DNA of 64,000 nt. It comes from Desulfurococcaceae archaeon MEX13E-LK6-19. Lineage in GTDB: Archaea; Thermoproteota; Thermoprotei_A; Sulfolobales; Desulfurococcaceae. Shown one piece after another: positions 8,700 through 27,887 of this stretch; the stretch's first letter is position 1, and every line of letters begins with the position of its first letter. The stretch covers positions 310,001-374,000 of the forward strand of contig CP072660.1 of NCBI GenBank assembly GCA_029637525.1, read 5' to 3'. A model generated the notes under the pieces. It saw only the letters and a list, made by a program, of their open reading frames with translations, ran no database searches and was not told where the DNA came from. Both the position numbers and the translations under genes were made by a program.

Positions 8700-8755
8700 A
8701 GAAGGAAGGCGGCCCGATCCCAGCTTGGGGCGGCTGCGGGGCCTCGCGGACCCCA
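8700..8755. repeat. Left attachment site (56-bp direct repeat)
   Basis: Identical to 27718-27773. It carries the last 48 bases of 5S rRNA in antisense and eight bases beyond the 3' end, and represents the original chromosomal 3' end of the gene left behind on integration. It also encodes the first residues of the left integrase fragment. It contains the 17-bp imperfect palindrome of 5S helix IV at 8738-8754, a plausible strand-exchange region. Confidence 0.93.
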
Positions 8756-9726
8756 AGATCATGAATTCGTTTAACACTTTCAATCCCCCTGGTTTAACAC
8801 CTAGTTTAACGCCTTCCATGAGCCAGTTTAACACCGTGGTCTCACAGACCGTTAAACAGCTTTTAAGTGAAGAAACATTTAGGCAAGGATTGAGACAATA
8901 TATGTTCTCTAGATACGTTAGAGACGATGCTAGGCAGAGATATAACTATCTCGTGAAGCATCTAGTTGTTCTCGACGACCCAATGTATATAACAAGGCTT
9001 ACCCCTAGCCAGGCAGCGCATTTGCTCAGGGGAATAGCTGCTCTAAGAGAATACTTGAGGCTCTTGGGCTACAGTGGTATAGCCGAGGCGCTGGACTACT
9101 ACCTTAAACAACTAAGGAAACTTGCCCCGAGGAAACGATCCATTAGGCTGCTCGACTACGAGGCTGATAAAAGCATTATAGACAAGGCTCTCGAGCAGCT
9201 CAGGAAAGCCATTGTCTCACGTTCCATACTATGGAGTCTACTAGCGCTAATAGACTTCTACACAGGCCTGAGGGGAACAGAGCTTGTATGGCTATGGACT
9301 CGGTGGAGTAGCCTCAGGAAAATACACCATAACAGCACAGTGATAGTCGAGTTAGGCTACGAGAGAAGAAGCAAGAAAGCATGGATAACGATGATGCCCA
9401 TGGAGCTAGCAGCTATCTTGGATACATATATGTATAAGGTAACAGTAAACACCATCCAGGACGCAAGAGATAGGCTAGGCATCAGGTGGAGCTTGTTCAG
9501 GAAAGCACACCTAGCAATACTAAGCACGAAACTCATGGAGCACGAGATAGATCTACTCCAAGGAAGGATGGGAAAGATCACTGTGAAACACTATACTAAA
9601 CACCTTAGGGAAATAGCCGACAAATACATAGAAGCATACAAGCCCTACCTACCGCTTCTCAAGCTCTGGCACGAGAGCAAGAAGACGGCTAAACAAGAAC
9701 AAGAAGTCCTCGCCCTTCCTCGTTAG
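8725..9726 (+). CDS. SSV-type tyrosine integrase, C-terminal part (int(C))
   Basis: Catalytic portion of the integrase, cut from its N-terminus by integration. The open frame starts at a TTG inside the att site; the first ten residues are encoded by the 5S-derived repeat. Catalytic features are visible: TGLRGTEL (Arg183 in this numbering), KKAW (Lys217/218), RKAHL (Arg259/His262), GRMGKITVKHY with Arg281 and the nucleophile Tyr290. Joined in frame to the 83 codons at 27524-27772 it gives about 406 residues. Whether this truncated form is translated is unknown. Its 3' end overlaps the convergent winged-helix gene by 78 bp. Confidence 0.9.
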   Translation: MGRLRGLADPKIMNSFNTFNPPGLTPSLTPSMSQFNTVVSQTVKQLLSEETFRQGLRQYMFSRYVRDDARQRYNYLVKHLVVLDDPMYITRLTPSQAAHLLRGIAALREYLRLLGYSGIAEALDYYLKQLRKLAPRKRSIRLLDYEADKSIIDKALEQLRKAIVSRSILWSLLALIDFYTGLRGTELVWLWTRWSSLRKIHHNSTVIVELGYERRSKKAWITMMPMELAAILDTYMYKVTVNTIQDARDRLGIRWSLFRKAHLAILSTKLMEHEIDLLQGRMGKITVKHYTKHLREIADKYIEAYKPYLPLLKLWHESKKTAKQEQEVLALPR

Positions 9727-9915
9727 CCTTAGCCTTCTCTCCCTACCAGTCTCCTCTTCTAGCAAACCCCAAGACACCGCCAAGTCTACATAACGTGTAA
9801 TAGTAGAAGCACTACCGCCAACACACCTAACAAGCTGCGTAACATTCATAGAACCACTATCCCTGACACAAACAAGCATCCTATAAAGAATAACCAAATC
9901 AATACCCCTAGGCAC
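9649..9915 (-). CDS. Winged-helix DNA-binding protein
   Basis: 88 residues with a MarR/ArsR-like winged helix: ILYRMLVCVRDSG, MNVTQLVRCVGGSASTITRYVDLAVSWGLLEEE (recognition helix) and a wing with RRLRLTRKGEDFLFLF. GTG start. Its last 78 bp run antisense through the integrase C-terminal codons, a compact arrangement that could couple expression of the two. A 37-bp inverted repeat lies 42 bases upstream of its start. Likely an element-encoded regulator, perhaps of the integrase; target unknown. Confidence 0.72.
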   Translation of the reverse strand: MPRGIDLVILYRMLVCVRDSGSMNVTQLVRCVGGSASTITRYVDLAVSWGLLEEETGRERRLRLTRKGEDFLFLFSRLLALVPELEKR

Positions 9916-9957
9916 AGCAACTACACCACATGTAATACTCGTAAAACAGAGAAAAAG

Positions 9958-9994
9958 GTGTTAGGTAGAAGTCTGGCGGGTTTCTACCTAACAC
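9958..9994. repeat. 37-bp inverted repeat, copy 1
   Basis: Arms GTGTTAGGTAGA and TCTACCTAACAC around a 13-bp spacer; here pairing extends one base further into the spacer on each side. It lies between two divergently oriented genes, so it is upstream of both. Confidence 0.92.
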
Positions 9995-10032
9995 CCAATT
10001 TAAAAACCAAAGCAAATAGATCAACAATAGGG

Positions 10033-10245
10033 GTGGTTCTACTGGAGCAGCAGAGCACTCTTATTATTAGGGATTTGCAGAGCAGTGTCAGGCTTCTCAG
10101 GAAGCTCAGCAAGCACGGTACTGTTATTTATGCTGCGACAATAGTTGTTGTAAGGATTAATCCCAGGGTTTTAGGTGGCCTCATTAAAAAGAATAAGAAT
10201 GTTAAGGTGGTTGATTCAGTTGTTGTTTTACCGCAGCTAGCTTAG
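10033..10245 (+). CDS. Small unknown protein
   Basis: The frame is open from 9958, but that start falls inside the inverted repeat. GTG 10033 or CTG 10042 (behind GGGGTGG) are better candidates, giving about 67-70 residues ending in VVDSVVVLPQLA. The sequence alternates charged and hydrophobic segments (LIIRDLQSSVRLLRKLSKHGTVIYAATIVVVRINPRVL) and could form a small alpha/beta or ribbon-helix-helix-like domain, but I do not recognise it. It converges with the ATPase gene, overlapping by nine bases. A real gene is likely because codon usage and composition match its neighbours. Confidence 0.5.
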   Translation: MVLLEQQSTLIIRDLQSSVRLLRKLSKHGTVIYAATIVVVRINPRVLGGLIKKNKNVKVVDSVVVLPQLA

Positions 10246-11058
10246 GTTCTTTATTTCCGTAGAAGTATATGTATAGCCCTCGACGAGCTCTTCTGGAATA
10301 AGCCCTTTCTCAACAAGTACTTTGCCCAGCATTTTCTTCGCTAGCCTATGGTATCCGTCTCTGATTATGGAGTAAGCCCTGTACACTGGGTCAGGCAGAT
10401 AGACCACGTATTGATCGGAGCCTACGTCCTCGGTGTACAGCTTATTCATGTAATCACTCTCATCGAGCACGACGATATGGGCTTCAGCAACCTTCACCTT
10501 CAAGCCATTGATTATTTTCGTGCCTACACGCCTGACCCTGACATGCAGCGACTCGGGGTCCTCACGAACCCTGGGTGGAAGCTTCTTCTTTGTAGGAGTC
10601 GTGAACACTAGTACCTTGACATCGGTCCTCGAGGTATCAAACCAGTTCAAGAACCAGATCAGGTAGGGCCTGAGCTCTGGATGATACCAGAAATAAGTGC
10701 TAAGCCAGACGCCAGCATCATCCCATATAATTATATCATTATACTTCTTCAACGCATCAAAGAACTCTTTCGGCGTATGTACAATCCTATTAAGAGCCTC
10801 GAGGTAGGCCTCACCGCAGCTAAGCCCTTGTCTCATGAAGTATTGTGCTACAACCTTGAGTGCATAAGTAGACTTGCCAGCACCCCTGCGGCCAGTAATA
10901 ATAATTGGCTGCAGTTCATTACACTCAATAGCATCAAAAATAAACGATAACAGCAAGTAGTTCCTCTTCCTACACTCAACACCAACTATATCCTCATAAG
11001 CCTTCTCAAGCTCTTCACGCTCCTCATCCGAGAGAACAGAGAATACCTCAAGACTCAT
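10237..11058 (-). CDS. P-loop ATPase of the integrated element
   Basis: 273 residues. Walker A is IIITGRRGAGKST (about residue 53-65), Walker B is NDIIIWDDAG with the adjacent Asp pair, and VKVLVFTTPTKK resembles a sensor-1 strand. The protein lacks further domains I can name. ATPases of this size are common in crenarchaeal viruses and plasmids, where they serve in replication initiation, partitioning or DNA packaging; which applies here is not visible. A TTG at 11067 is also in frame; ATG 11058 is preferred. It is the last gene of a five-gene minus-strand operon and overlaps the preceding gene by 11 bp. Confidence 0.82.
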   Translation of the reverse strand: MSLEVFSVLSDEEREELEKAYEDIVGVECRKRNYLLLSFIFDAIECNELQPIIITGRRGAGKSTYALKVVAQYFMRQGLSCGEAYLEALNRIVHTPKEFFDALKKYNDIIIWDDAGVWLSTYFWYHPELRPYLIWFLNWFDTSRTDVKVLVFTTPTKKKLPPRVREDPESLHVRVRRVGTKIINGLKVKVAEAHIVVLDESDYMNKLYTEDVGSDQYVVYLPDPVYRAYSIIRDGYHRLAKKMLGKVLVEKGLIPEELVEGYTYTSTEIKNLS

Positions 11059-11416
11059 AGTCCTCAACCCTAGTCAGCCGCTGCACCTTCTTCCTAACAA
11101 GCAGGCCACGCCTATCAAGCAGCGAAGTAATCTTGTAGAGTAACTCGAGAAGCTGTCCACGATCCATGTTCTCCACATCTTTAATAGTCTCCAAAGGATT
11201 AAGATCGCTGCCATAAACATCCTCGGGAATAGAAGCAAGCAAAGCCTGCATCATACTCCTTGCATGAGCAAGCCTCATCTTATACTCATACTCTGGCAAC
11301 ATACTATGGATACCACCAAGGGCCCTAGCAACATCAATCAATAAGCCGCCAAGTTCATAACCATAAACTTGCTCCTTATACTTAACCCTATACTCGAGAC
11401 TCAACAGAATCACCAA
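11048..11416 (-). CDS. Hypothetical helical protein
   Basis: 122 residues, mainly helical (LGGLLIDVARALGGIHSML, MRLAHARSMMQALLASI, MDRGQLLELLYKITSLLDRRGLL) with a basic C-terminus. No family recognised. The GTG start overlaps the stop of the 39-codon gene upstream (TGGTGA) and its end overlaps the ATPase start, so translational coupling is likely and it may act together with the ATPase. Confidence 0.68.
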   Translation of the reverse strand: MVILLSLEYRVKYKEQVYGYELGGLLIDVARALGGIHSMLPEYEYKMRLAHARSMMQALLASIPEDVYGSDLNPLETIKDVENMDRGQLLELLYKITSLLDRRGLLVRKKVQRLTRVEDYES

Positions 11417-11529
11417 TAAGCCTTGATTACATCGTAGCCGTTTCTCTCTGCAATAGCTTCTACTTCTTTGAGGAGCATCCTAACATCCTTTGATCTTCTC
11501 TTTTTCTTTAGCACTATGTGGATGTACAT
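11410..11529 (-). CDS. 39-residue basic peptide
   Basis: A short frame read directly from the sequence: ATG at 11529, stop at 11410-11412. It begins MYIHIVLKKKRRSKDVRMLL and ends NGYDVIKAYW. It starts two bases after the stop of the Lys-rich protein gene and its stop overlaps the next GTG start, so it sits exactly in the only gap of an otherwise continuous operon. The first half is strongly basic. Function unknown; the tight fit is the evidence that it is a gene. Confidence 0.6.
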   Translation of the reverse strand: MYIHIVLKKKRRSKDVRMLLKEVEAIAERNGYDVIKAYW

Positions 11530-11531
11530 GG

Positions 11532-11924
11532 CTAGTCTTCCTTGTACTTCTCCCTATAGATCTCCCATGCTTCTTCGGCTGCATCTTCGTATATTTCAGC
11601 TACTTCTTTGAGCTCTCTTCTCTCCTTGGGGCTTATGATCGGGTTCTTAGAAGCTGCTTCGGCACGGTTGGCTGCATATTGTATAGCTCTTGCAATGGTT
11701 AGAGCGGTTTTTCTGCCAATCTTCTTCTTGCCAAGCCTGCCCTTCTTGAGAGCGTCTACGAGCTCCTGGGCAGCCTCTTTAGCTTCGTCAGGCTTCTTGA
11801 ACGATACTATATTGGCAAGCCATTTATGACGTGGTGGCTTGAAGAGCCCGTTGTCTTTACTCTTCTTGTTCTTTGACTTAGACTTGGATTTCTTGCTAAT
11901 CTTTTTCTTCTTTTTCTTCGCCAC
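11532..11924 (-). CDS. Lys-rich, probably DNA-binding protein
   Basis: 130 residues. The first 23 are almost only Lys and Ser (MAKKKKKKISKKSKSKSK and on), a disordered polycation that suits DNA or RNA binding. The remainder is helical: EAKEAAQELVDALKKGRLGKKK, then ALTIARAIQYAANRAEAASKNP, then an acidic end. I know no named family. In a mobile element such a protein could condense the genome or be packaged with it, as an inference. GTG start; it overlaps the upstream gene by 29 bp and leads into the 39-codon peptide gene. Confidence 0.72.
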   Translation of the reverse strand: MAKKKKKKISKKSKSKSKNKKSKDNGLFKPPRHKWLANIVSFKKPDEAKEAAQELVDALKKGRLGKKKIGRKTALTIARAIQYAANRAEAASKNPIISPKERRELKEVAEIYEDAAEEAWEIYREKYKED

Positions 11925-12207
11925 GGCCTACACCCGCCAAGAGTAGTTCTGCATCGGATATGAGTAGATCCTTCTTTGACTCAACAAAATCAACAGCTAG
12001 AGAAGCCCTGAGCGGTGGCGTGAGCTCTATTTCCTTCCCCAAGACATAGTTGATGCTTGCAACAAGCTCCAGCTCCTTCCTACAAGAAAAGCTGCTAAGA
12101 TACGGTAGTATCCTAGCCCATTCACCCAAGCTCTTCCTCAGTGCAGACAAGAGCGTTGTAAGAGAGCTCCTACCAACGAGGAGACCCTTGTCGAACTCCT
12201 TGCTCAC
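11896..12207 (-). CDS. Hypothetical protein, first gene of the minus-strand operon
   Basis: 103 residues, helical, with LSALRKSLGEWARILPYLSSFSC and VASINYVLGKEIELTPPLRASLAVDFVESKK. No family recognised. The GTG start has an excellent AGGTGAT upstream. The divergent promoter region to the membrane-protein cassette lies at 12208-12345. Overlap with the following gene indicates a coupled operon ending in the P-loop ATPase. Confidence 0.68.
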   Translation of the reverse strand: MSKEFDKGLLVGRSSLTTLLSALRKSLGEWARILPYLSSFSCRKELELVASINYVLGKEIELTPPLRASLAVDFVESKKDLLISDAELLLAGVGRGEEKEEKD

Positions 12208-12345
12208 ACAAGATCACCTATGCTACAAATATAAATATTATATGTAATAGGGAGCTGGCTGGAGCACAACATCATTTCTATGGCTAGCTCTACCCAGCTC
12301 GTTATTTCCTATAAAACACGAGATCAACAATTTGGGGAAAGTATC

Positions 12346-13488
12346 ATGACAAGTTCCAAGATCGCCAGAACTCTTGCCTTAATCCTAGTAGTTTTTGCCA
12401 TAATAATAGCACCAATAACCCCATTAGCCCAGACCCTCGAGGAAGAAAAGATAGTTGTTGTAAAAACCTATGACTTAAGCGATCCTACTATTCTTAGTAA
12501 CTTAACAACATATACGTATGATAAGGTCAGCAATGTACTACAGGCCTATGATAACACGACAACAAAAATAGCTGTTGATGGATACCTTTATCTCTCTGAC
12601 TTAAACACAAGCGATAACTATGTTCCAGCAATAGCATTCGACTTACAAGCTCCATCCCTAGACCTTAACAACAACGAGAAAATACTGTATGGATTACTTT
12701 TAAGCAACATCCTTGGCTCTGTAGCCATTGGCACGGTTACAGTTAATGAGACTACAGGACAAGTACTCAACGCCACTTTCATCAAGGTAGAGCCTTATTC
12801 AGACAACATCATTGTTGTCAGGACAGCAAGTGATGTAGTGATCTACACTGGTATAGGCAAGTTCTCTGTTCCAAGCGGCAAAGTAATGATTTACACCGAA
12901 AGCGAGGCCAGCATCCAGGGTATAAGCGAGATCGAACTAAGATCATTAGCTACACCACCAGCAGACTACCAATTAGTTAGGAGTGGCTCAGGCGAGGCCA
13001 CAGTCACCATAAGTGCAACAGGCACGGTAAGAGTATACTTTGACGAGACACATAGCACTGGTGATGCCGATCTATTTATCTTCGATTCAAATAACCCATA
13101 CTTCGCCGAGGCATCAGAGCAATGGAGCTGGAGCACACTACTAATGAGATGTAACCAATTCGCCTTTGCAGACGGTAGACCACAGTTTGTAACAATTGAA
13201 GCTCATGGACAGCTGAAATTCGTTGTAAAGAACTACCCAGGAAGCTATCTTGGTACACAGCCACAGTCATGGAACATCGCCATAGCGGTCCTATCCTCTT
13301 CAGAGACACCATCACCAACATTCACTATACAGAACGAGCAACCTAGCCAAACCCAGACACCTTCTGGTGTAGACTGGAGTAGACTAGCAAGCTACTTTAC
13401 AGGCAATCAGACTGCTATGACGGCTACCATCGTGATCATAATCATCATAGTGATGTTGCTGGCAGTAATTCTGCTATTAAGAAAGTAA
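12346..13488 (+). CDS. Exported glycoprotein-like membrane-anchored protein
   Basis: 380 residues from ATG 12346, which has GGGGAAAG upstream; an open frame to 12280 has no ribosome binding site. An N-terminal signal peptide (ARTLALILVVFAIIIAPI, then PLAQ) is followed by an extracellular region rich in Asn/Thr sequons and beta strands; a segment near the middle (TGTVRVYFDETHSTGDADLFIFD) recalls pre-peptidase C-terminal-like beta domains. A Ser/Thr/Pro/Gln linker and a C-terminal helix (MTATIVIIIIIVMLLAVILLL) anchor it outward. First gene of the membrane cassette. It could be a virion spike or cell-surface protein; the evidence is topology only. Confidence 0.78.
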   Translation: MTSSKIARTLALILVVFAIIIAPITPLAQTLEEEKIVVVKTYDLSDPTILSNLTTYTYDKVSNVLQAYDNTTTKIAVDGYLYLSDLNTSDNYVPAIAFDLQAPSLDLNNNEKILYGLLLSNILGSVAIGTVTVNETTGQVLNATFIKVEPYSDNIIVVRTASDVVIYTGIGKFSVPSGKVMIYTESEASIQGISEIELRSLATPPADYQLVRSGSGEATVTISATGTVRVYFDETHSTGDADLFIFDSNNPYFAEASEQWSWSTLLMRCNQFAFADGRPQFVTIEAHGQLKFVVKNYPGSYLGTQPQSWNIAIAVLSSSETPSPTFTIQNEQPSQTQTPSGVDWSRLASYFTGNQTAMTATIVIIIIIVMLLAVILLLRK

Positions 13489-13513
13489 TGATGCGGTGGT
13501 GGAAGTGAAGTGC

Positions 13514-14209
13514 ATGAAGACAATACTACCAATAACACTGTTGTTATTAGTACTCATATCACCAGCCATTATTGTTGCTGATGAAACAAGGCTTGCATGG
13601 GAAGACAGCGGCTATGACTTAGCACCAGGATATAGATACACTATTTCACTCCACGCCGAGGTATCGTGGACACATGATCTAGCACTGGCTGCTATCGAGG
13701 CTGGACCAGTCAAGGTTGCCGTGGAGATCTTTGACACTAATCCACCAGGCTATGTCACGCTTGGCACCAGGGTCTATGTGAACAACAGGGTCAGGTACAG
13801 CGGCGATGAAGTACAGTTTGGCCCAGGAAGCGGCGGCTCATACGATATCTCAGTGCAAATAAAGGTTGATTGGGACGGTAATGGTGAAGTCTATGTACAT
13901 GGACGTAGAGTAGCAGCATTCACTATCGAGAATCCCTGGGATATACAGCAGTTCACAGACAGGCGCAGTGGCCTCGGATACACGATACAGTCAAGTATTG
14001 TAATAGACTATCAGAGACTCCCACCGCCGTCAAGTGGTGACTCTAACACAATTATCGTACAACAGCCAAGCGAAAACCCGCAAGGCTTCGACTTCTTGGC
14101 CAGCCTTGGTGCTGCCACAGTTGTTTTTGTCCTCATACTGCTCCTGGGGATCGGCGGGATAATGCTCCTGATAGTCTTTAGTCAGGCTAGGCGTAGGGGG
14201 TGGATCTAG
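13514..14209 (+). CDS. Exported beta-rich protein with C-terminal membrane helix
   Basis: 232 residues. Signal peptide MKTILPITLLLLVLISPAII, then a beta-rich ectodomain (DLAPGYRYTISLHAEVSW, VYVNNRVRYSGDEVQFGPGSGG), a linker PSSGDSNTIIVQQPSENP, and a membrane helix (LGAATVVFVLILLLGIGGIMLLIVF) before RRRGWI. The frame opens at 13496 but ATG 13514 with GGTGGAAGTGAAG upstream fits better. The stop touches the ATG of the next gene. Same type-I topology as its two neighbours, so the three are probably components of one surface assembly. Confidence 0.76.
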   Translation: MKTILPITLLLLVLISPAIIVADETRLAWEDSGYDLAPGYRYTISLHAEVSWTHDLALAAIEAGPVKVAVEIFDTNPPGYVTLGTRVYVNNRVRYSGDEVQFGPGSGGSYDISVQIKVDWDGNGEVYVHGRRVAAFTIENPWDIQQFTDRRSGLGYTIQSSIVIDYQRLPPPSSGDSNTIIVQQPSENPQGFDFLASLGAATVVFVLILLLGIGGIMLLIVFSQARRRGWI

Positions 14210-15943
14210 ATGCCCAGGCGTATAGGAACAAACATACTACCCTGGATCATACTGGGACTGATAATGCTAGCCATAGTACTAATACCAACCATAATGATAT
14301 ACAACATATATAACCAAGTAACAAGACCACTCCAGGGACTACCACTAGTCCACGAGATACCTGCTAGCCAAGTCCAGGTGACAGTACAAACACTGAGCTT
14401 GGAGCCAGGCCAGGTCTATGAGCTGCAACTAACCAGTGATAACAGCCTAGTGTTCACGAAGACAAACAGGATACTAACAGAAGATATGACACTAGAACAA
14501 ACAACACTAAGTAGCGGCGACGTAATAGCACCACATCTATACGACTGGTTGTTTCCTGATGGTTATATGGATTGGATTGCCTACGACTATACAGAAACTA
14601 TAAGCGGTAGTTTTGTTGTTGAGGCTAGGGCTAGTGTCTTTGACACTAATATCAGGCATGTATTTAATACGAGGGCAAGGTCTGGCGTTGCTAATTATGA
14701 CTATAGCTTTGACTTCAAGTTCCAGAACGGTAATAGAATTCATGGCGATATAGGTAATGGCACGACATGGCTTACAACTGTTGCCGACGTTTATCCATTC
14801 TACTATGAGACCCATAGATTCTACAACATAACATACGAGGTCTACGAGACAGGCTACAAGATATATGTTGATGGCGAGCTAAAAGCTAGTGGAACATATG
14901 ACGTAAGCACGCCATTACTAACAGACGTAAATCATTATCCTATCGTCGGCGGCTCAATACCAACTCTCTCAACAGTATACGATAGAGTATTCTATGGATA
15001 CATAAGCTATGTAAGGGTGAAACAAGGGAGTACATTAAAGCTACTTCTTGACCCAATTGCGTTCAATGGAACACATTACTTCGACATAGTATCAGGCGCT
15101 GTTGGTACAGTAACAGGCGATGTACAACGAGTACCAGCCGAGCATACATGGCTATGGCTAATCAAGTCTCTAGAAACTGACGGTAAACTACATATTAAGT
15201 TTGTGCCACCAGGTGCTGTTCTTAGGATCACGTATAATGATCAGGTTTATGAGTGGCGTATTGATGGTAAGGCTAATGCTGCTGGGTTGATAGAGGACTA
15301 TGCTATTGACTTGTTGTCAGTCTTTGGTACTACAACATTAAGCAATGCTAAGGTTGAGCTTATATGGACCAATAAGGTCAGGTTCTATGCACCACCAGGG
15401 TTCACAGTAAAGGTGTCTAATGAGAACCTTACTATTGCTAAGAGAGTACCTGAGAACGCTAGCTATGTGGATATAGCGCTTGAGCCTGGCGTATATACTG
15501 TTGAGCTTCTTGCTGACCGTCAGGTTGAGCCGCATGTCAGCTTAATGCGTGATAACAACTATTATGTTATTGTTGTCCGTGACGAAAACTACTACGCTCT
15601 AGCAAACGCCACAGTGGTAGTCTATGCCAACGGCGTTGAGGTTGCCAGGGGTGTAACGGATGCTACTGGCAGATTCATAGTGCCAGCTAGCGAGCTCAAC
15701 AACACTGATACAATTAGAGTAGAAGTACTGGCACTATCAGCAGGCACATACTACACTACATCAAGAACCATAGAGCTAACCCAGGCAGCACCAGCAACCC
15801 AAACTCCTAGTCAAAACCAGCCAGTTAGCAGCGGCTCAGAATACATAATAGCCATTGATAGAACCAGGATAACAACCACCATAGTGATCATACTAGCCAT
15901 AATGTTTCTTGCAGTACTAGTTATAGCCTTCAGGAAAAGGTGA
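14210..15943 (+). CDS. Large exported protein with LamG-like and CarboxypepD-reg-like domains
   Basis: 577 residues. An N-terminal membrane helix (LPWIILGLIMLAIVLIPTIMI) without clear cleavage site, then a probable concanavalin/LamG-like domain at about 125-235 (YNITYEVYETGYKIYVDGELK is characteristic), a beta region, a carboxypeptidase-regulatory-like fold near 450-510 (ALANATVVVYANGVEVARGVTDATGRF), a Thr/Gln/Pro linker and a C-terminal helix (TTTIVIILAIMFLAVLVIAF). The LamG-like part suggests carbohydrate or surface binding. With helices at both ends it may be anchored twice. Candidate host-recognition protein; inference. Confidence 0.75.
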   Translation: MPRRIGTNILPWIILGLIMLAIVLIPTIMIYNIYNQVTRPLQGLPLVHEIPASQVQVTVQTLSLEPGQVYELQLTSDNSLVFTKTNRILTEDMTLEQTTLSSGDVIAPHLYDWLFPDGYMDWIAYDYTETISGSFVVEARASVFDTNIRHVFNTRARSGVANYDYSFDFKFQNGNRIHGDIGNGTTWLTTVADVYPFYYETHRFYNITYEVYETGYKIYVDGELKASGTYDVSTPLLTDVNHYPIVGGSIPTLSTVYDRVFYGYISYVRVKQGSTLKLLLDPIAFNGTHYFDIVSGAVGTVTGDVQRVPAEHTWLWLIKSLETDGKLHIKFVPPGAVLRITYNDQVYEWRIDGKANAAGLIEDYAIDLLSVFGTTTLSNAKVELIWTNKVRFYAPPGFTVKVSNENLTIAKRVPENASYVDIALEPGVYTVELLADRQVEPHVSLMRDNNYYVIVVRDENYYALANATVVVYANGVEVARGVTDATGRFIVPASELNNTDTIRVEVLALSAGTYYTTSRTIELTQAAPATQTPSQNQPVSSGSEYIIAIDRTRITTTIVIILAIMFLAVLVIAFRKR

Positions 15944-15949
15944 TCAGAA

Positions 15950-16774
15950 ATGTTTAAACCCAAGCCTTTTTTCTTTCTCACAATAATACTTGTCTTAATC
16001 ATAGCTTCTCCTGTTTTCGCTGAAGACAAAGAAGAGCTTAGGTTCTCTAATGATTGGCTGAAGGGTGTTGCTATTGTTGTTTATCAGAACCAGTATGGTA
16101 CTTGTTTCTGGGTGAACCCCAGTCATGTCGTTACGGCAGCGCATGTTGTGAACAACCAGCCTAACGCTGTTGTGACCATCATAAGGGGTAATGTCCATGC
16201 TAGAGGAGTTGTTGTAGCACTTGATACTCAGAGTGATTTGGCGGTGATATACGTTGAGAACTCTGGCCAGTTTGACAAATACATCTTCCCGCTGGCCGTC
16301 AGGATACCTGAGCCCTCGAGTACAATATACGTTATAGGTTATCCATTCGAGCTACTGCAGATAATGGGTAGCCTCGAGGCTCTTAGCGAGAACCCTAGGA
16401 TTCTCGAGAGCCGTCTAACATGGTCCGCCAATGGCTTGATCGAGCTGGGCGGAATCGTTGATGCTGGCAATAGCGGTGGACCTGTCCTGGACTACTACGG
16501 CAACGTTATTGGTGTCGTGAGCTTTGCGCTGCGTGGCAATGCTGGAGTACTCTACTTCGCCACAACGGTAGGCGCATTGAGAGAACTGCTTAGAGAACAT
16601 GGAATAGCCTACATCGAGGGAACAAGCAGCATACTCCCTGAATCCATAGTACAAGACCCATTCGTGGCAGGCGCAATAGCAGGGGCATCAGCTGGCCTAG
16701 TCCTCGACATACTCATCCTCGCTACAGGCACAGGACTGGGAATACTCATAGCCTCAAAAAGGAGGCGAAGATAA
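15950..16774 (+). CDS. Secreted HtrA-like serine protease, membrane-anchored
   Basis: Trypsin-fold protease with a complete catalytic triad: TAAHV (His65), DTQSDLAV (Asp96) and GNSGGP (Ser175). A signal peptide occupies residues 1-24 and a C-terminal hydrophobic region (AGAIAGASAGLVLDILILATGTGLGILI) precedes RRR, so the protease domain faces the outside. No PDZ domain is present; at 274 residues it is a minimal HtrA/DegP-type core. It stands six bases after the LamG-like gene and two before the next gene, within the structural cassette. It may process the neighbouring surface proteins; this is inferred from position. Confidence 0.87.
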   Translation: MFKPKPFFFLTIILVLIIASPVFAEDKEELRFSNDWLKGVAIVVYQNQYGTCFWVNPSHVVTAAHVVNNQPNAVVTIIRGNVHARGVVVALDTQSDLAVIYVENSGQFDKYIFPLAVRIPEPSSTIYVIGYPFELLQIMGSLEALSENPRILESRLTWSANGLIELGGIVDAGNSGGPVLDYYGNVIGVVSFALRGNAGVLYFATTVGALRELLREHGIAYIEGTSSILPESIVQDPFVAGAIAGASAGLVLDILILATGTGLGILIASKRRRR

Positions 16775-16776
16775 AT

Positions 16777-17895
16777 ATGGATGGCCAGCTTCCAATCGAT
16801 GAACACATTATAGAGCTAATAAAGAAGTATCTTTTCCAGCAGCATCTAGCTAATGAGCCGCAATGGCTTGTATTAACCCTAGCTGCACCCATTATAGCTC
16901 TGCTTTTCTTTATCATCTTGTGGGCTAAGTATAAGGCTCATGTACATGACCTGGTTGATGCTGTGTTCTTTTTCTTCATACCCTATGCCCCTAAACGTAT
17001 GCTGTTGCTGAAGGATCATCTTGGTAATAAGCATGTTTTCTATGATGACGAGATCAAGGTTGCTGGCGGTAAGGATGGCGGGTTTATTGTTCAGGCTGGC
17101 AGCTTTCTAGTGAAGCTCAACGATGACCCATTTGCTTATGCAGAGCCCTTATCATTGATCGATACCAAGATACCTGGTGGCCCAAGCCCCTTCGGCTTGT
17201 TTGTCAGGCAGCTAGTGGCAGTCTATATAATGCTGGCCTTGATAGCACTGAGCTTCGCCAACACAATAGTCGTCACTATGGCTGGCTTCGGCATGCCGCC
17301 TACACCAATAGACCTAGTAGTCTTCAGCGCCCTGGTGTTCTCGCTGGCCTGGCTACTAGCCATACTCGTGAAAGCCTTCAGCCCACAGACACTCTTCACA
17401 AGCATAGTGGTCTCGCACTCAGAGAACAACATAATGCGTGGAATCATACCAGTAGACGCATTCTCGAGCATACCACCAACAAAACTACTAAGCAAACTAA
17501 CCAAGATAGAGATCAACGTAGCTGACTCAGTCAAAGAAGCCTACGAGAAGATAAAGAACATAGTGGGAGACAGCGGTCTAGCAGCAGCAATACTAAGCAC
17601 GATAGGAGAAGTCTACGAGACATGCCATAAGTCACTTGGACTAATCCTCAAGTCAAGATACGATATATCAGTGGCAGCGAAGGCCAGGTACATGCTTGAA
17701 AGAGAAAAGATAGGCCCGTCATGGCTGACCCGATACGCTGGAGTAATAGCGATACTAGCACTAATAGCAATAGCCGTGCTGGCAGCCCTTCTATTGAACA
17801 TACAGGTCCAGCCAGCACAAGTAATCAACGAGACAACCAACACCATCACCTATGTCACCCCTGCACAGCCACCGCCACCACCGATATCGGGCTGA
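16777..17895 (+). CDS. Multi-pass membrane protein, unknown
   Basis: 372 residues. Hydrophobic helices are visible near 30-48 (WLVLTLAAPIIALLFFIIL), 145-170, 180-200 (LVVFSALVFSLAWLLAILV) and near the C-terminus (YAGVIAILALIAIAVLAALLL), with a soluble insert between the first and second and a Pro-rich tail. A central region (ILSTIGEVYETCHKSLGLILKSRYDISVAAKARYML) is helical and charged. I recognise no family. Starts two bases after the protease stop; part of the same transcript. Confidence 0.72.
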   Translation: MDGQLPIDEHIIELIKKYLFQQHLANEPQWLVLTLAAPIIALLFFIILWAKYKAHVHDLVDAVFFFFIPYAPKRMLLLKDHLGNKHVFYDDEIKVAGGKDGGFIVQAGSFLVKLNDDPFAYAEPLSLIDTKIPGGPSPFGLFVRQLVAVYIMLALIALSFANTIVVTMAGFGMPPTPIDLVVFSALVFSLAWLLAILVKAFSPQTLFTSIVVSHSENNIMRGIIPVDAFSSIPPTKLLSKLTKIEINVADSVKEAYEKIKNIVGDSGLAAAILSTIGEVYETCHKSLGLILKSRYDISVAAKARYMLEREKIGPSWLTRYAGVIAILALIAIAVLAALLLNIQVQPAQVINETTNTITYVTPAQPPPPPISG

Positions 17896-17900
17896 TAGCT

Positions 17901-18194
17901 ATGGAGCTGGTCGCAGCTGCAGCATTAGCAGCATTCATGCTATCGATAACCTATGCCTTCGTGAAGATAGCAGAAAGACAAGGAATAGCAAAAGCATTCA
18001 TAGCAGCCCTGATACTAGCAGACCTCTTCGTAATCCTCTTAATGCTACTAGGCATCGACAGACCACTAATCATAATAAAGACAAGACTGGGATCCACGAC
18101 AATAACCTACCTTCAAGTGTTTCTACTGCTAAAAGTACCTTTCACGATATGGAGTATCGTCAATCGAGAACAACTAAGGAGAATACTTGGATGA
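17901..18194 (+). CDS. Small membrane protein with three hydrophobic segments
   Basis: 97 residues from ATG 17901; the frame is open from 17721 but the upstream part is a shadow of the preceding gene. Hydrophobic segments: ELVAAAALAAFMLSITYAF, AFIAALILADLFVILLMLL and TYLQVFLLLKVPFTIW. No catalytic motif. Small multi-helix membrane proteins in such cassettes can be virion membrane proteins; no direct evidence. Confidence 0.66.
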   Translation: MELVAAAALAAFMLSITYAFVKIAERQGIAKAFIAALILADLFVILLMLLGIDRPLIIIKTRLGSTTITYLQVFLLLKVPFTIWSIVNREQLRRILG

Positions 18195-18261
18195 AGACAC
18201 AAACTCTTTTTCCTCTATACATGTGATACAATATATTGTACTGGTTACTGGTGGGTTAATC

Positions 18262-18618
18262 TTGGATAAAAAGAGCTTCCTCTACGGGCTAGGCATAGGC
18301 CTGGTTCTGGCTGCACTAGTGTTCCTCGCAGCACTATGGGGCCCCCTCAACAACGTAGACTACTACACGAGAAAACTACTAGACTACGTAAACTCTGAGA
18401 CATACGACACCTCGAGAGACATTCTGGCAAAAATGTATGACGAAGGAAAAACGCTGCTAAACAACATAGAACTCACAACCAAAGACCTAGAATACGCCAA
18501 ACAAGGAACAGTAGCAGCACTAGCAACAGCCACGCTATTCACGATAATACTTGGAGCAGCAGTAATCACGGTAACATATCTATGGCGTAAAATAAAACTA
18601 CCAATACCTAAACTGTAA
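18262..18618 (+). CDS. Two-helix membrane protein with coiled linker
   Basis: 118 residues. TTG 18262 is chosen because GGTGGG precedes it; the frame is open from 18187 without a ribosome site. Helix one is LYGLGIGLVLAALVFLAALW, then an about 55-residue polar helical segment (DYYTRKLLDYVNSETYDTSRDILAKMYDEG), then helix two ATATLFTIILGAAVITVTYLW and a basic tail. A helix-linker-helix layout like this would place the linker on one side of the membrane. Unknown function. Confidence 0.65.
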   Translation: MDKKSFLYGLGIGLVLAALVFLAALWGPLNNVDYYTRKLLDYVNSETYDTSRDILAKMYDEGKTLLNNIELTTKDLEYAKQGTVAALATATLFTIILGAAVITVTYLWRKIKLPIPKL

Positions 18619-18674
18619 CTCTCTTTTTCTAAAACACCTTAGACAAACACGTATAATGTAATTGGTGTATAAAC

Positions 18675-18863
18675 ATGGTTAAACGGAACACCCTCATCAC
18701 ACTCCTTGCAGCAATACCCATTATCGCAATAATCATCTGGTTGCACTGGATCTTACTAAAAAGTGGAACACTGAAAATAGTGCTAATCACAGGACCACTA
18801 GTCATCGGAATAGCATTCGCCATAGCATTCCTACTAGGACAACAAAGAAGAAGTGTTAGGTAG
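18675..18863 (+). CDS. 62-residue alpha-helical hairpin membrane protein
   Basis: Two closely spaced hydrophobic helices (LITLLAAIPIIAIIIWLHWILL and IVLITGPLVIGIAFAIAFLLG) separated by about six residues, with basic ends MVKRN and QQRRSVR. Size and shape resemble the hydrophobic hairpin coat proteins of archaeal spindle-shaped viruses, but such hairpins are easily found by chance and I saw no specific sequence signature. Its stop codon lies inside inverted repeat copy 2, which therefore follows it directly. Confidence 0.66.
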   Translation: MVKRNTLITLLAAIPIIAIIIWLHWILLKSGTLKIVLITGPLVIGIAFAIAFLLGQQRRSVR

Positions 18864-18889
18864 ATTACCACTCAGGTTCTACCTAACAC
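18853..18889. repeat. 37-bp inverted repeat, copy 2
   Basis: Perfect 12-bp arms with a 13-bp spacer. The left arm overlaps the last codons and the stop of the 62-residue membrane protein gene, which shows that the repeat is tolerated inside coding sequence. It closes the membrane-protein cassette. Confidence 0.93.
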
Positions 18890-18998
18890 CATTCTTTTTG
18901 TTTCACCCAACACCCTGAGACCCTGTATAGAGTGAAGTATTTGGCTAAACAGGTCCTCGAGGAGACAACCACCACGTAGCCTAGAGGAAGTGACCAGG

Positions 18999-19181
18999 AT
19001 GCCCGTAGACCCCAAGGTAGTCCTCTTAGTTGAGTACATCCAACGTAAAGTAGACGACAAACTAAGAGAGCTGAAAATACCAGACGAAATAAGACAAAAG
19101 ATAAACTACGAGATAGAGAAAATCAAGCAAACACTCATCGAATACGGCCTAGCGCAAATAGAGAAAGAACTAGGGATTTAA
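18999..19181 (+). CDS. Small helical protein
   Basis: 60 residues from ATG 18999 (GTG 18990 is also in frame). It opens MPVDPKVVLLVEYIQRKVDD and continues as an almost uninterrupted charged amphipathic helix ending IEKELGI; this suits a coiled-coil or dimeric three-helix protein. No family recognised. Independent of the membrane cassette, 110 bases beyond repeat copy 2. Confidence 0.58.
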   Translation: MPVDPKVVLLVEYIQRKVDDKLRELKIPDEIRQKINYEIEKIKQTLIEYGLAQIEKELGI

Positions 19182-19251
19182 TTCGATCTAATAGTTTTGA
19201 TCGATAAGATTATTTTTCGTTGCGTATAAGTTTAATCTTGAGTGAGTAACA

Positions 19252-19959
19252 ATGATACTTGGCGAGATCCTAGAGTTTTTTAGATGGATTCTAAGTAACA
19301 TTATTGTACTTGCTTTAGGCGGCTTAATTACAAAGTTAATAGAGATATTTCTTCCAGGAAGCATACGATACAGGTTAAGACTTTGGTGGGGGTATGCATG
19401 CAACTACTTTCGTAATCCTGATATTCATGCAAAGAATGTATGGATCTTTTATTTAGGTGAAGAATATGTTATGGACGAATTACAGGAACATATACTGAAC
19501 TATTTTATCCAACAAAAGGTAAAGGCGTTCAATGGTAATGATAACATTAAGTTTGAGATAGAATACAACGATAAAAAATTAGAAGGATTCCTATATTTCG
19601 GTGTATCAGGAATTAACGAAGATAAGATACTGGTAAACCAAATAGAAGTAGTTGTAGAAACAACTCTTCACTACAGAGAATTCTTTGAAGGTCTCCTTGC
19701 ACTTCGTGAGGCTATACATAAGAACATAATAGCACACCTAGTAACATGCCTTAATCAACCAGAGTACTCATCTGTTCTTGAAGTTAAAATAAACAAGCTA
19801 GAAGAAGTAACAAAAATAATTGATGATCTGAAGGTTAAGTACATCTCGTTAGGAGACAAGTACAGAATTTATCTTGTAGGAAAGTATATTAGAATAACCG
19901 ACATCGTAGACAAAAGCGTATTAAGAGCTCTAAAAACTCTCTTAGCTCTCTATTTATGA
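19252..19959 (+). CDS. Hypothetical protein with N-terminal membrane helix
   Basis: 235 residues. One hydrophobic helix near the start (FFRWILSNIIVLALGGLITKLIEIF) followed by a soluble, charged domain with IWYLGEEY-type aromatic patches and alternating beta strands (FEIEYNDKKLEGFLYFGVSGI, ILVNQIEVVVETTL). Visibly more A+T-rich than the surrounding element genes. It overlaps the convergent gene at 19950 by ten bases, and the two look like one acquired unit. I cannot name a family. Confidence 0.68.
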   Translation: MILGEILEFFRWILSNIIVLALGGLITKLIEIFLPGSIRYRLRLWWGYACNYFRNPDIHAKNVWIFYLGEEYVMDELQEHILNYFIQQKVKAFNGNDNIKFEIEYNDKKLEGFLYFGVSGINEDKILVNQIEVVVETTLHYREFFEGLLALREAIHKNIIAHLVTCLNQPEYSSVLEVKINKLEEVTKIIDDLKVKYISLGDKYRIYLVGKYIRITDIVDKSVLRALKTLLALYL

Positions 19960-20702
19960 AGAGATGCCAGTATATTTTCTTTGATATAATTTATGAGGAA
20001 CAATTTATCACGTTCTTCATTAAAGAGGTTATAGCAAATTACAGTAAGTGTATCGCCTAGACTAGAACTCTTTGGATTTTTCCGTATGATTCTAAACTTG
20101 TATGTTTTTCCCCTACTACTCTTATATCTAAAATCAGAATACATGTAATCCTTATCTGGTTCGAGTGCTCGCGAAGAAAACTCTTCATATTCCTGTGGAG
20201 ATTCAACATTGCTACCAAATACATGAAGCTTAGTCCATCCGTTAATATCTCGTAATCCATCAAACGCTGTACCATAAGTTTGGTGAGGAATTTTATCAAC
20301 TATGTCGCGTAACTGATTACGAGATAAGTACACTATGTTTATCCTACCTTGATAACTACCAAATAGCTTTCTTTCAAGCTCCTCTATTAAGGTCTTAATC
20401 TTGAGTGCTCCAGAAAAAATACATAGGTAAGTCTTATCGTTATAATTAAATATCGCAAATTCTATCGAAGCATTCCTCTTTTTAGTCTCATACCTTTTAT
20501 TCTCAACATTATATTCCTTATCAATATATTGATATCCAAAACAACCAAATATAACTTCCGAAATCTTTCTAATATTATAGAATGATGCATATAAAGATTC
20601 CTGTTTACCATTAATGATAACTGATTGATTTATATAAACGTAAGGTTTATCCGATATACTTTTCAATTTATCATATATATCATCAATACTTAAAAAAGGC
20701 AT
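19950..20702 (-). CDS. Hypothetical protein, A+T-rich cargo gene
   Basis: 250 residues from ATG 20702 (MPFLSIDDIYDKL); the frame extends to 20756 but neither start has a clear ribosome binding site, so the transcript may be leaderless. Mixed alpha/beta, rich in Tyr, Asn and Lys. No transmembrane helix and no motif that I recognise. Composition contrasts with the G+C-richer element genes, suggesting separate acquisition. Convergent with the membrane-helix gene at 19252. Confidence 0.66.
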   Translation of the reverse strand: MPFLSIDDIYDKLKSISDKPYVYINQSVIINGKQESLYASFYNIRKISEVIFGCFGYQYIDKEYNVENKRYETKKRNASIEFAIFNYNDKTYLCIFSGALKIKTLIEELERKLFGSYQGRINIVYLSRNQLRDIVDKIPHQTYGTAFDGLRDINGWTKLHVFGSNVESPQEYEEFSSRALEPDKDYMYSDFRYKSSRGKTYKFRIIRKNPKSSSLGDTLTVICYNLFNEERDKLFLINYIKENILASLHK

Positions 20703-21017
20703 TGTATATAAGTGGCAAGCAAGCAAGTATTTCACCCCCTTATCTAAACAAAACAATGCTTGGCATTAATACCATTATGTGATACAATATTTTGTCTTCT
20801 CATAACACCCTTTAAACTATCACTTAAGATTTTGACATCAATTTTTTCGATAGCAAATGCTACAAGATATCTACAGTAAAAATAACCCAATACGTTCACC
20901 TATTCACTTATCCACATGATATCTAATTTAATACCGTATTACTTTATATTGATAACGCCAACTGTTTCTAGAGAACCCAATCATGCCATCTAACAATAAG
21001 GACTTTCCAGAGATAAG
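20703..21017. other. A+T-rich intergenic stretch, no gene seen
   Basis: About 315 bases between two minus-strand genes. No plausible reading frame, RNA or long repeat was found. It should hold the promoter of the 19950 gene; TATA-like stretches such as TTTATATTGATA occur near 20942. The 37-bp repeat copy 3 follows at its right edge. Confidence 0.6.
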
Positions 21018-21054
21018 GTGTTAGGTAGAACCCTTACACAAATCTACCTAACAC
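21018..21054. repeat. 37-bp inverted repeat, copy 3
   Basis: Perfect 12-bp arms, 13-bp spacer. It lies four bases beyond the stop of the minus-strand gene 21059-21973, a terminator-like position for that gene. Confidence 0.93.
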
Positions 21055-21058
21055 GCAT

Positions 21059-22239: not shown

Positions 22240-22250
22240 CCATAAGCACC

Positions 22251-22363
22251 ATGTATAATATACATAGTACAAGTATTACAGTATGATCTGCTAGTTGTAC
22301 ATTGTACAGAGAGCTTATATACCTAGCACATTGTACAATATACACAGAGGTGAATATGTACAT
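22251..22363. promoter_or_regulatory. Divergent promoter with TGTACA palindromes
   Basis: Four inverted repeats lie between the two divergent operons: a 15-bp one at 22251-22265 (ATGTATAATATACAT), TGTACATTGTACA at 22296-22308, ATTGTACAAT at 22330-22339, and ATGTACAT at 22356-22363. A TATA box (CTTATATAC, about 22314-22322) for the plus-strand operon sits between the second and third. A dimeric regulator bound here would cover the TATA box. The bound protein is unknown; the wHTH and the RHH proteins next to it are the obvious candidates. Confidence 0.65.
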
Positions 22364-22604: not shown

Positions 22605-22616
22605 GGGTGATCCGTA

Positions 22617-22961: not shown

Positions 22962-23684
22962 ATGAACAAAGAACAACTACTCAAGCTAGCCGAGGCACTC
23001 AGGCCAGCAGTGGCTGCCAGCGACCATAGTGTCCAGTCGTTGATATACCAGTGGAACCTCGGCGACCTACTAGAGCACTTGACGAGAGAATGTGATGCCA
23101 AGGTTTGCCTCACCGTATCCGATCTGGTGTATTGTAGCCAGAAGTACTGGTTTAGGCTACAGCATCCCTTGCCTGTTATCGAGCAGAATATTTATGGTCC
23201 ATGGGGTGTTTATGGTAGGCTTATCCATCTTGGTCTCGAGCATCTTCTCAGAGAGAAATGGAATGGTGTTAGAATCGAAGTCGAGGTTGAGAGAAGGCTT
23301 TGGCTGAACAATGGAGAGCCTACACTAGTTAAGATCACGGGGCGCATAGACGCCCTCAGGGTTACTGATGGCGGTGAAGTTGTTGTCTATGAGTTCAAGA
23401 GTTCTAGAGGCGATAGCGAGCAGCCTAAGCAGCCGCATATCATGCAGCTAAGAATCTATATGCTCATGGCTTCAGCGACAAAAGGCTACTTGGTATACGT
23501 TAATCCAGACCGTGTAGCAGAATACGAGATCAACAACCCTATGAACGACGTGGATCTAAAACAACTTGTCAAAGAAACCATCGAGAACACCAAGCACCCA
23601 CGCTGGGACTGGGAATGCAGCTATTGTCCATACAACATGATGTGTCCCTACAAACACTTCTCAAACAACTACAAGAGGAGGTGA
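22962..23684 (+). CDS. Cas4-like PD-(D/E)XK nuclease with Fe-S Cys motif
   Basis: 240 residues. The RecB/Cas4 arrangement is complete: an N-terminal single Cys (SDLVYCSQKYWFR), GRLIHLGLEHLL (active-site His helix), KITGRIDALRV (catalytic Asp), VVYEFKSSRG (catalytic E-x-K), a QLRIYMLMA helix (QxxxY motif), and C-terminal CSYCPYNMMCPYK with three more Cys for a 4Fe-4S cluster. Expected to be a DNA exonuclease. Viral and plasmid Cas4 homologues occur without CRISPR loci, and no other cas gene is present here. Part of the regulator operon, six bases after the preceding gene. Confidence 0.85.
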   Translation: MNKEQLLKLAEALRPAVAASDHSVQSLIYQWNLGDLLEHLTRECDAKVCLTVSDLVYCSQKYWFRLQHPLPVIEQNIYGPWGVYGRLIHLGLEHLLREKWNGVRIEVEVERRLWLNNGEPTLVKITGRIDALRVTDGGEVVVYEFKSSRGDSEQPKQPHIMQLRIYMLMASATKGYLVYVNPDRVAEYEINNPMNDVDLKQLVKETIENTKHPRWDWECSYCPYNMMCPYKHFSNNYKRR

Positions 23685-27523: not shown

Positions 27524-27773
27524 ATGCCTCACCTACCTTCGCCTGAAGAGCTAAGGGACAACCCTAATCTTTTCTTGAAGCTTATGGACGAGTATAGGAT
27601 AACGCCAAGAGACCTCGGGATCACTAGGGTCTATAAAAGCATGCTTAAGAAGGGCCTCAGGAAACCCAGCCTAGAGTTATGCAGGAAGATGCTTAAGCTA
27701 GTTGAGCAGAAACAAGGAGAAGGAAGGCGGCCCGATCCCAGCTTGGGGCGGCTGCGGGGCCTCGCGGACCCCA
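27524..27773 (+). CDS. SSV-type integrase, N-terminal part (int(N))
   Basis: Codons 1-83 of the integrase, from ATG 27524 to the end of the att repeat. The helical DNA-binding head is ITPRDLGITRVYKSMLKKGL; codons 66-83 (EGRRPDPSLGRLRGLADP) are encoded by the 5S-derived att site. From 27774 the open frame merely runs antisense through the 5S gene to 27871 and is not integrase. In the circular form residue 83 is followed directly by Lys-Ile-Met of the left fragment in the same frame. In this integrated state the protein lacks its catalytic domain. Confidence 0.9.
27718..27773. repeat. Right attachment site (56-bp direct repeat)
   Basis: Identical to 8700-8755. It forms the 3' part of the intact 5S rRNA gene, so integration preserved the gene. 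Its inner end coincides with the helix IV palindrome GGGGCCTCGCGGACCCC (27756-27772). The flanking base identities diverge immediately outside (G/A at the left edge, C/A at the right). Confidence 0.93.
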
Positions 27774-27859
27774 CGGCCAACCCCAACGTGGCCGGCTTAA
27801 CTTCCGGGTTCGATATGAGACCGGGTGTTGCCCGGCCACTATGGCCGGGTCGGGCCGCC
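27726..27859 (-). rRNA. rrf: 5S ribosomal RNA, target of the integrated element
   Basis: Read on the minus strand, about 134 bases. The closing helix I is perfect (GGCGGCCCGA with TCGGGCCGCC). The conserved archaeal segments CATATCGAACCCGGAAGTTAAG and the AAGCTGGGAT 3' motif are present, and helix IV with a GCGA loop (GGGGTCCGCGAGGCCCC). The last 48 bases lie in the att repeat. A TTAAAA promoter-like element is about 30 bases upstream, inside the end of the Zn-ribbon gene. It is not linked to 16S or 23S genes in this window, as is usual for crenarchaea. Confidence 0.94.
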
Positions 27860-27887
27860 AGTTTAGTCTAGTCAGTTGTTTCGTGTT

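Follow-up and report, generated by a model that had tools for sequence, protein, structure and literature searches.

Most of the virion proteins that archaeal viruses encode are orphans. The described systems closest to the locus considered here are the Fuselloviridae (SSV1, NC_001338), the Guttaviridae (APOV1, NC_028256), whose virion is enveloped and ovoid, and the Thalassapleoviridae, whose members AvPV1 and ApPV1 are enveloped pleomorphic viruses of Archaeoglobus, AvPV1 being known to form particles (PMC10919331). To these can be added Sulfolobus super-elliptical virus (SSeV; MN539721, our locus L006), a deposited isolate with a circular genome of 15.4 kb that is filed under Fuselloviridae. 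Here we consider a cassette of eight genes in a 64,000-nucleotide stretch (the window) of Desulfurococcaceae archaeon MEX13E-LK6-19, taken from a 1.91-Mb one-contig archaeal chromosome (CP072660.1, positions 310,001 to 374,000). Judged from sequence, these genes suggest a family of enveloped viruses that has not been described, with relatives in other heat-loving archaea. The reading that we favour, with a probability of roughly 80%, is that these genes form the virion-membrane (morphogenetic) module of an enveloped temperate virus with a circular double-stranded DNA genome, integrated at a 5S rRNA gene and belonging to an undescribed group that includes SSeV. The group is undescribed, yet GenBank already lists one relative as a virus.

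All eight genes of the cassette proposed in the original prediction were found, nearly contiguous and on the same strand (12280/12346-18863). Three of the products are exported single-anchor proteins, one is a protease and four are membrane proteins, as follows (window coordinates):

12280..13488, plus strand: S1, exported protein with a C-terminal anchor (402 amino acids (aa), with a C-terminal segment and a signal peptide; G170 and G174 have homologues)
13496..14209, plus strand: S2, exported protein with a C-terminal anchor (homologues in several elements, some fused beside P or S3)
14210..15943, plus strand: S3, large surface protein with a LamG-like and an Ig/MG-like domain (Pfam, relatives, structure model)
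15950..16774, plus strand: P, membrane-anchored HtrA/trypsin-type protease (PF13365, 1.8e-18; triad kept in 9 of 9)
16777..17895, plus strand: M1, signature protein (alignment, model, SSeV gp33 homologue)
~17901..18194, plus strand: M2, membrane protein of 97 aa (adjoins M1 in most loci)
18187..18618, plus strand: M3, membrane protein, start uncertain (open reading frame, hydrophobicity)
18675..18863, plus strand: M4, candidate structural protein of the membrane, a 62-aa hairpin with two hydrophobic segments (small hairpins of this kind also in SSeV and many related loci)

The most telling evidence comes from SSeV. A single-sequence tblastn search of 50,697 phage records with the window M1 found SSeV only (E = 2e-9), the counterpart there being gp33, and single-sequence phmmer comparisons of the window with SSeV matched P (1.3e-16), M1 (1.3e-15) and the NTPase encoded beside the cassette (4.3e-8). 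M2 was matched in SSeV by profile, as was Y, a protein encoded upstream of M1 in many relatives, with E-values that flatter since SSeV itself is in the profiles. SSeV shares eight proteins with SSV1, namely B251 (the NTPase), the integrase, D244, D63, A100, VP2, F93 and C80; VP1, VP3, VP4, A291, C166 and B277 of SSV1 were not found in it at E 0.01, and SSeV is not one of the 24 records recovered by tblastn with SSV1 VP3. SSeV looks like a fusellovirus-type backbone in which the virion-membrane genes have been swapped for a protease/M1 module. Because the module takes the place of fuselloviral virion genes in SSeV, we suggest that it builds the virion; this is our main argument. With VP2 and the protease/M1 module, and lacking a recognisable VP1, VP3 or VP4, SSeV may need to be reconsidered as a member of Fuselloviridae. 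The window element has both features by which we provisionally delimit an SSeV-like group, M1 and a membrane-anchored trypsin-like protease with an intact triad. The cassette had earlier been read as belonging to an enveloped or spindle-like virion or to a surface adhesion apparatus. P and M1 of SSeV favour a virion, and adhesion is disfavoured since that isolate encodes both; a spindle form specifically finds no support, no homologue of VP1, VP3 or VP4 having been found.

Further evidence comes from the relatives. The set recurs in order at independent loci, so the cassette is more than a chance assembly. Nearly all compared loci were picked by a match to M1 or P, and the counts that follow show co-occurrence, not frequency. 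Fourteen loci representing 13 elements were annotated initially; 12 of these elements carry M1, the thirteenth being L031 (in G138), a decayed relative with a fragmented integrase, an intact M2 and an M1 cut to its tail with a stop. Seven further loci comprise four with M1 (L054, L074, L076 and L090), two that end before or within M1 yet carry P (L075 and L077) and one that is unrelated (L059), bringing the loci with M1 to 17, window included. Among the 16 outside the window, P accompanies M1 in 13 (missing from L024 and L028, which are short contigs, and from L090) and M2 does so in 14 (not in L029 or L090; the M2 of L032 was observed on the copy L073). Y lies upstream of M1 in L021, L007, L026, L009, L023, L024, L025, L006 and L073 and is frequent, not defining. 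Gene order is kept too: the G170 element reads NTPase-g11048-g11532-g11896 followed by S1 on the opposite strand, as does the window, and the IMG/VR contig L054 reads S2-P-M1-hairpin-M2.

M1 is patchy, being present in 13 of the 214 genomes of the order, window genome included. When the whole phylum was searched with an M1 profile, 18 of 398 genomes gave matches, and in four of them (G000, G167, G041 and G014) the match spans most of the profile. The remaining 14 we rejected as spurious, since they cover mainly a transmembrane segment and a Pro/Thr-rich tail or, in one case, a short internal stretch. HtrA relatives, by comparison, occur in 303 of the 398 genomes at E ≤ 1e-10, so an HtrA-type protease is not by itself diagnostic. 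Neither the window M1 nor that of L023 had a match when viral contigs were scanned, and scanning genome contigs with M1 likewise returned nothing. Searching with the protease alignment recovered 15 viral loci, from which L054 and L059 were taken into the comparison, and, in genomes, 21 loci of which 10 are archaeal.

The cassette sits inside an integrated element of 19.0 kb (8700-27773), whose G+C content of 42.8% compares with 38.4 and 38.5% outside it. Its other principal features are:

8700..8755, no strand: left attachment repeat, 56 bp (repeat search; 100% identity to the right copy, 19018 bp apart)
8725..9726, plus strand: C-terminal part of an SSV-type tyrosine integrase (PF16795, 4e-9; phrog_5127 integrase, 2e-15; starts inside the left repeat)
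9649..9915, minus strand: winged-helix/MarR-like regulator (weak Pfam MarR/HTH matches; family common to SSeV, SSV1 and APOV1)
10237..11067, minus strand: DnaA-like/AAA+ NTPase (phrog_5484, 3.9e-32; thalassapleovirus NTPase, hhalign 99.7%; SSV1 B251, phmmer 4.3e-23)
11048..11416, minus strand: g11048, small protein beside the NTPase (iterated profile; kept in several elements)
11532..11924, minus strand: g11532, Lys-rich basic protein, candidate nucleoprotein (AvPV1 gp07, 7e-13, and ApPV1 gp13, 2e-12, by hmmsearch; hhalign 98.7%)
11896..12207, minus strand: g11896, small protein (conserved near the same position in L007, L021 and L026)
18853..18889, no strand: 37-bp palindromic site GTGTTAGGTAGA-N13-TCTACCTAACAC (one of seven; the others start at 9958, 21018, 25762, 25813, 25883 and 26830)
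22962..23684, plus strand: Cas4-like PD-(D/E)XK nuclease (PF12705, 9e-16; phrog_1706, 1e-22)
27524..27871, plus strand: N-terminal part of the split integrase (overlaps the right repeat; homologous N-termini in other elements)
27718..27773, no strand: right attachment repeat, 56 bp (spans the 3' end of the 5S rRNA gene)
27733..27852, minus strand: 5S rRNA gene, complete, the integration target (Rfam RF00001, 63.6 bits)

When the integrase halves are joined across the repeat, an open frame of 406 residues results. Attachment-type repeats also flank four other elements, of 45 bp in G170, 46 bp in G045, 72 bp in G174 and 36 bp in G167, the first of these at a 5S gene and the others at genes for tRNA-Val, tRNA-Leu and tRNA-Ser. 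Since the relatives are patchy and lie at different RNA genes, the cassette is mobile. A fixed chromosomal cluster, named beforehand as the finding that would speak against a viral origin, is not what we see: the cassette comes with an integrase and repeats, and a possible new virus family, as originally suggested, gains support from patchy mobile relatives that include SSeV. The 3' end of a 5S gene is the target in two elements whose hosts belong to different families (L021, 4218-4341, and the window, 27718-27852). Such a target is unusual for SSV-type integrases, and a term search of a review of archaeal tyrosine recombinases turned up no mention of it (PMC8371274).

The element further encodes winged-helix and ribbon-helix-helix-like proteins. 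All seven near-identical palindromes lie within it and nowhere else in the window, where none is expected by chance, and three cluster at 25.76-25.92 kb; they are probably operators of one element regulator or repressor, or else iterons of an origin. One 27-28-bp stretch overlapping the palindrome at 9958 also matches stretches in G024 and G010. Between 18990 and 21973 the element is AT-rich (G+C down to 0.33), and the genes there (at 19252, 19950 and 21059), which have no significant family assignment, are possibly accessory cargo.

Signal peptides and C-terminal segments are present in S1, S2 and S3, as predicted. An internal ATG at 12346 gives an S1 of 380 aa opening with a typical signal peptide and is likely the real start. 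The LamG-like and regulatory-like domains claimed for S3 fared less evenly. Both matches are sub-threshold in Pfam (LamG-like, 23.0 bits against a cut-off of 27.6; carboxypeptidase-regulatory-like, 18.2 against 32.3), but both recur among relatives, the regulatory-like domain in four of five and LamG_3 in two of five. In the structure model of S3, residues 436-527 form a confidently predicted Ig/alpha-2-macroglobulin-like domain (Z 11.7 over 77 residues), which would be fitting for a spike or adhesin; the model is poor at residues 109-314, so the LamG-like part is Pfam-based. P bears out the claim of an HtrA-type protease with a full His65/Asp96/Ser175 triad: it matches Trypsin_2 at 1.8e-18, its best solved structure is HTRA1 (2.3e-9, the match covering the protease domain only) and the triad is invariant in all nine sequences of the alignment, which include one from a virus isolate. 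No PDZ domain was matched in P by Pfam at E ≤ 1, and from about residue 239 its C-terminus forms a membrane segment. The signal peptides, C-terminal segments and Arg/Lys-rich tails suggest that the ectodomains and P face outward.

Four membrane proteins, including a 62-residue hairpin, had been expected, and M1 to M4 match that description, M4 having two hydrophobic segments. M1 runs from a transmembrane segment through a small beta domain, a transmembrane hairpin and a helical region to a further transmembrane segment and a Pro/Thr-rich tail. Its model (mean predicted local distance difference test score 73.9) has a long N-terminal helix, the small beta domain, the hairpin, the helical region and the final transmembrane segment. 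Compared with the PDB it gave a best E of 0.18 and nothing below 0.1. That other families are missing from the fold searches carries no weight. It does match two BFVD viral models, A0A7L4XND4 (334 aa), which by its length is probably SSeV gp33, and A0A2Z5WQ06 (317 aa, Foldseek E 3e-15). The latter, a viral protein resembling M1 in predicted structure, may be another member of the group. The listed open reading frame of M2 starts at 17721, overlapping M1, and the start of M2 is uncertain. M3 found no credible homologue in the profile comparison of related loci.

In several relatives the surface proteins are fused. S3, S2 and P share one stop-free frame of 1087 codons in G170; in G174, S3, S2 and a further ectodomain protein make up 1127 residues; P and S2 are joined in G167 (591 residues), as are an S2-like part and P in L075 (702 residues); and G024 joins an N-terminal ectodomain to S3 (772 residues, the second segment being anchor-like). 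Inspected by eye, the junctions in G170, G174, G167 and L075 consist of a hydrophobic anchor, Arg/Lys residues and then a signal peptide with an Ala-X-Ala-like site. Host signal peptidase is likely to cut these fusions co-translationally into single-anchor proteins, leaving the ectodomains and the protease outside. Eukaryotic enveloped viruses make glycoprotein polyproteins, which the archaeal fusions resemble, no homology being implied; a limited literature search recognised no paper on polyproteins of archaeal viruses.

Small hairpins of 60-90 aa lie beside M1 or P in many elements; each has a pair of hydrophobic stretches, and in many the C-terminus is basic. Some elements have hairpin-like segments at the end of a surface protein. 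SSeV has two, gp31 and gp32, the latter of 62 aa like M4. Their alignment is loose (24% mean column identity, no invariant column); going by size and pattern, a major membrane protein is best sought among them.

If the cassette is a virion module, S1 to S3 would be translocated by their signal peptides and anchored C-terminally to form surface spikes, whose lectin- and Ig-like domains would bind the S-layer or glycans and so mediate attachment. P would share their membrane, with the protease domain on the outer side, where it could mature the spikes or open the S-layer at exit or entry. M1 and M2 would serve as conserved scaffold or assembly proteins, while the small hairpins, M4 and perhaps M3, would make up the bulk of the virion's membrane protein. 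The NTPase and the Lys-rich protein, which are transcribed divergently, would handle or condense the genome, excision would be carried out by the re-formed integrase and particles would be released by budding. Virion location, topology, protease substrate, the roles of the membrane proteins and provirus activity are all things that we infer from the genes.

Several points weigh against a virion. For SSeV the virion is read from name and record, the literature search having found no description of that virion, of SSeV or of an SSeV-like group. SSeV has no detectable homologues of S1, S2 or S3; Y was not found in the window element; and M3 and M4 are paired with proteins of the relatives by size and pattern only, without significant sequence similarity. 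A capsid gene, which the original prediction could not recognise, was not recognised here either: no element protein matches a known capsid or fusogen in profile and hhalign comparisons. A non-exhaustive search of 118 genomes with element DNA, the hits in L112 and L114 left out, gave no convincing CRISPR spacer match, and short hits in L109 and L111 lie outside any repeat array. Finally, plasmids that travel in membrane vesicles could carry a similar gene set. This last point leads to an alternative that we consider unlikely, though the least so of three: the element would be non-viral, an integrative element or plasmid with membrane proteins that bud off vesicles carrying DNA or mediate cell-to-cell transfer, without a true virion. 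Besides the missing capsid gene, it can draw on the inference that membrane proteins and surface ectodomains alone could form vesicles and on SSV-type integrases being known in plasmids too (PMC8371274). It sits poorly with SSeV, an isolate named as a virus, where P and M1 belong to a module replacing fuselloviral virion genes, and with an NTPase and a Lys-rich protein that are common to AvPV1, a particle-forming virus (PMC10919331).

It seems to us improbable that this is an ordinary fusellovirus, or some other virus of spindle shape, whose VP1 and VP3 have diverged strongly and are to be seen in M3, M4 and the hairpins. SSeV does have a fuselloviral integrase, NTPase and VP2 and is filed under Fuselloviridae, and the two-helix hairpins, at 60-90 aa, are about as large as VP1 and VP3 and of broadly similar shape. 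However, VP4/C792, B277, C166 and A291 were not found in SSeV, and nothing in fuselloviruses credibly corresponds to M1, M2, P or Y. In hhalign comparisons of the hairpin family VP1 and VP3 were not among the five best targets, all of which scored at most 0.3%, though short hydrophobic proteins are easily missed. We rejected a spindle-virus capsid after comparing SSV1 VP1, VP3 and VP4 with every element family, as the original prediction had proposed for the coat proteins: there was no credible match, although distant short hydrophobic homologues could escape. With filters off, M3 matched an SSV1 frame at 15223 (E 0.0042) and Y a 92-residue frame (E 0.0071), and hhalign gave 12.6% over 33 columns for Y against the VP4 C-terminus; being short and hydrophobic or helical, the M3 and Y matches are taken as chance. 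Credible matches to SSV1 and APOV1 are limited to the integrase, the NTPase and regulators, plus g23940 for APOV1. Least probable of all is a surface apparatus of the element or the host, serving adhesion, S-layer modification or protein quality to the benefit of the host and making no particles. LamG/Ig-like ectodomains with an HtrA-type protease do resemble cell-surface systems, and HtrA relatives are widespread in the phylum, but M1 is rare, moves with integrases and attachment repeats at varied sites and, like P, occurs in SSeV.

The proposed virion-membrane module, then, ties 17 loci, metagenome-assembled genomes titled Staphylothermus, Pyrodictiaceae, Desulfurococcales and Acidilobaceae among them, to a single Sulfolobus virus isolate on deposit. 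It provides SSeV genes that were hypothetical with candidate functions and shows the exchange of a virion module on a common replication and integration backbone. If P matures the spikes, this would be an envelope-maturation system of an archaeal virus, comparable with those of eukaryotic enveloped viruses. Going further, and with the odds somewhat against us, we tentatively propose a new archaeal virus family with membrane-bounded virions, whose spikes and outward HtrA-type protease would in several members be made as polyproteins and split by host signal peptidase, perhaps also by the viral protease, as an archaeal counterpart of the eukaryotic glycoprotein polyproteins. The module would have moved as a block onto a fusellovirus-type backbone, turning a spindle into an ellipsoid.

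How, then, does the element compare with known systems? No cassette protein matched a fuselloviral, guttaviral or pleolipoviral virion protein. With the Fuselloviridae it shares the integrase type, including an attachment site inside the integrase gene itself, the DnaA-like NTPase and one regulator family, but in place of a recognisable VP1, VP3, VP4, A291, B277 or C166 it has the protease and M1/M2 module. The Guttaviridae resemble it in genome size and in integrating at RNA genes, and they too have an NTPase (hhalign 99.1%), an SSV-type integrase and winged-helix proteins, whereas S1-S3, P, M1, M2, Y and the hairpins have no credible match among 21 APOV1 proteins (hhalign best 9.5%). For the Ovaliviridae (SEV1, ellipsoid), which have a linear genome and a putative protein-primed polymerase, the integrase-driven integration of a circle argues against membership. 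P itself has the chymotrypsin-like fold matches and His-Asp-Ser triad of HtrA/DegS-type proteases but differs from them in having no matched PDZ domain, in its C-terminal anchor, in being encoded by a mobile element and in sometimes being fused to surface proteins.

With the Thalassapleoviridae the element has the NTPase (hhalign 99.7%) and the Lys-rich g11532 (98.7%) in common, and with them and the Pleolipoviridae it shares a block in which an NTPase is encoded alongside small membrane proteins and surface proteins bearing signal peptides. The SSV-type split integrase and the HtrA-type protease set the element apart from both. No VP4-like fusogen emerged when S1, S2, S3 and X were compared with two VP4 families (hhalign ≤ 1.4%), nor a VP3-like protein from M2, M3 and the hairpins (≤ 0.5% among the matches listed); the cassette found no hhalign match to gp08 or to haloviral ORF6 and ORF7, and the window NTPase reached only 12.5% against haloviral VP8. 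Kinship of M1 with AvPV1 gp08, suggested by eye from the order of transmembrane segments and a small beta-rich stretch, was rejected because profile comparison does not support it. The Lys-rich protein is common to an Archaeoglobus pleomorphic virus (L116, 5649-6029) and the window (11532-11924), which suggests that genome-handling genes have been exchanged between viruses of different archaeal phyla. By the virion proteins compared, the element falls outside Fuselloviridae, Guttaviridae, Pleolipoviridae and Thalassapleoviridae; its predicted genome-handling part joins several groups of enveloped viruses, while its surface module is isolated. SSeV differs from it in having surface proteins that are not recognisably related, another order of NTPase, Y, P and M1, and its own D244, D63, A100 and VP2 of SSV1 type; the two are alike in P with its triad, M1, M2, the NTPase, an SSV-type integrase, a regulator family and small two-helix hairpins.

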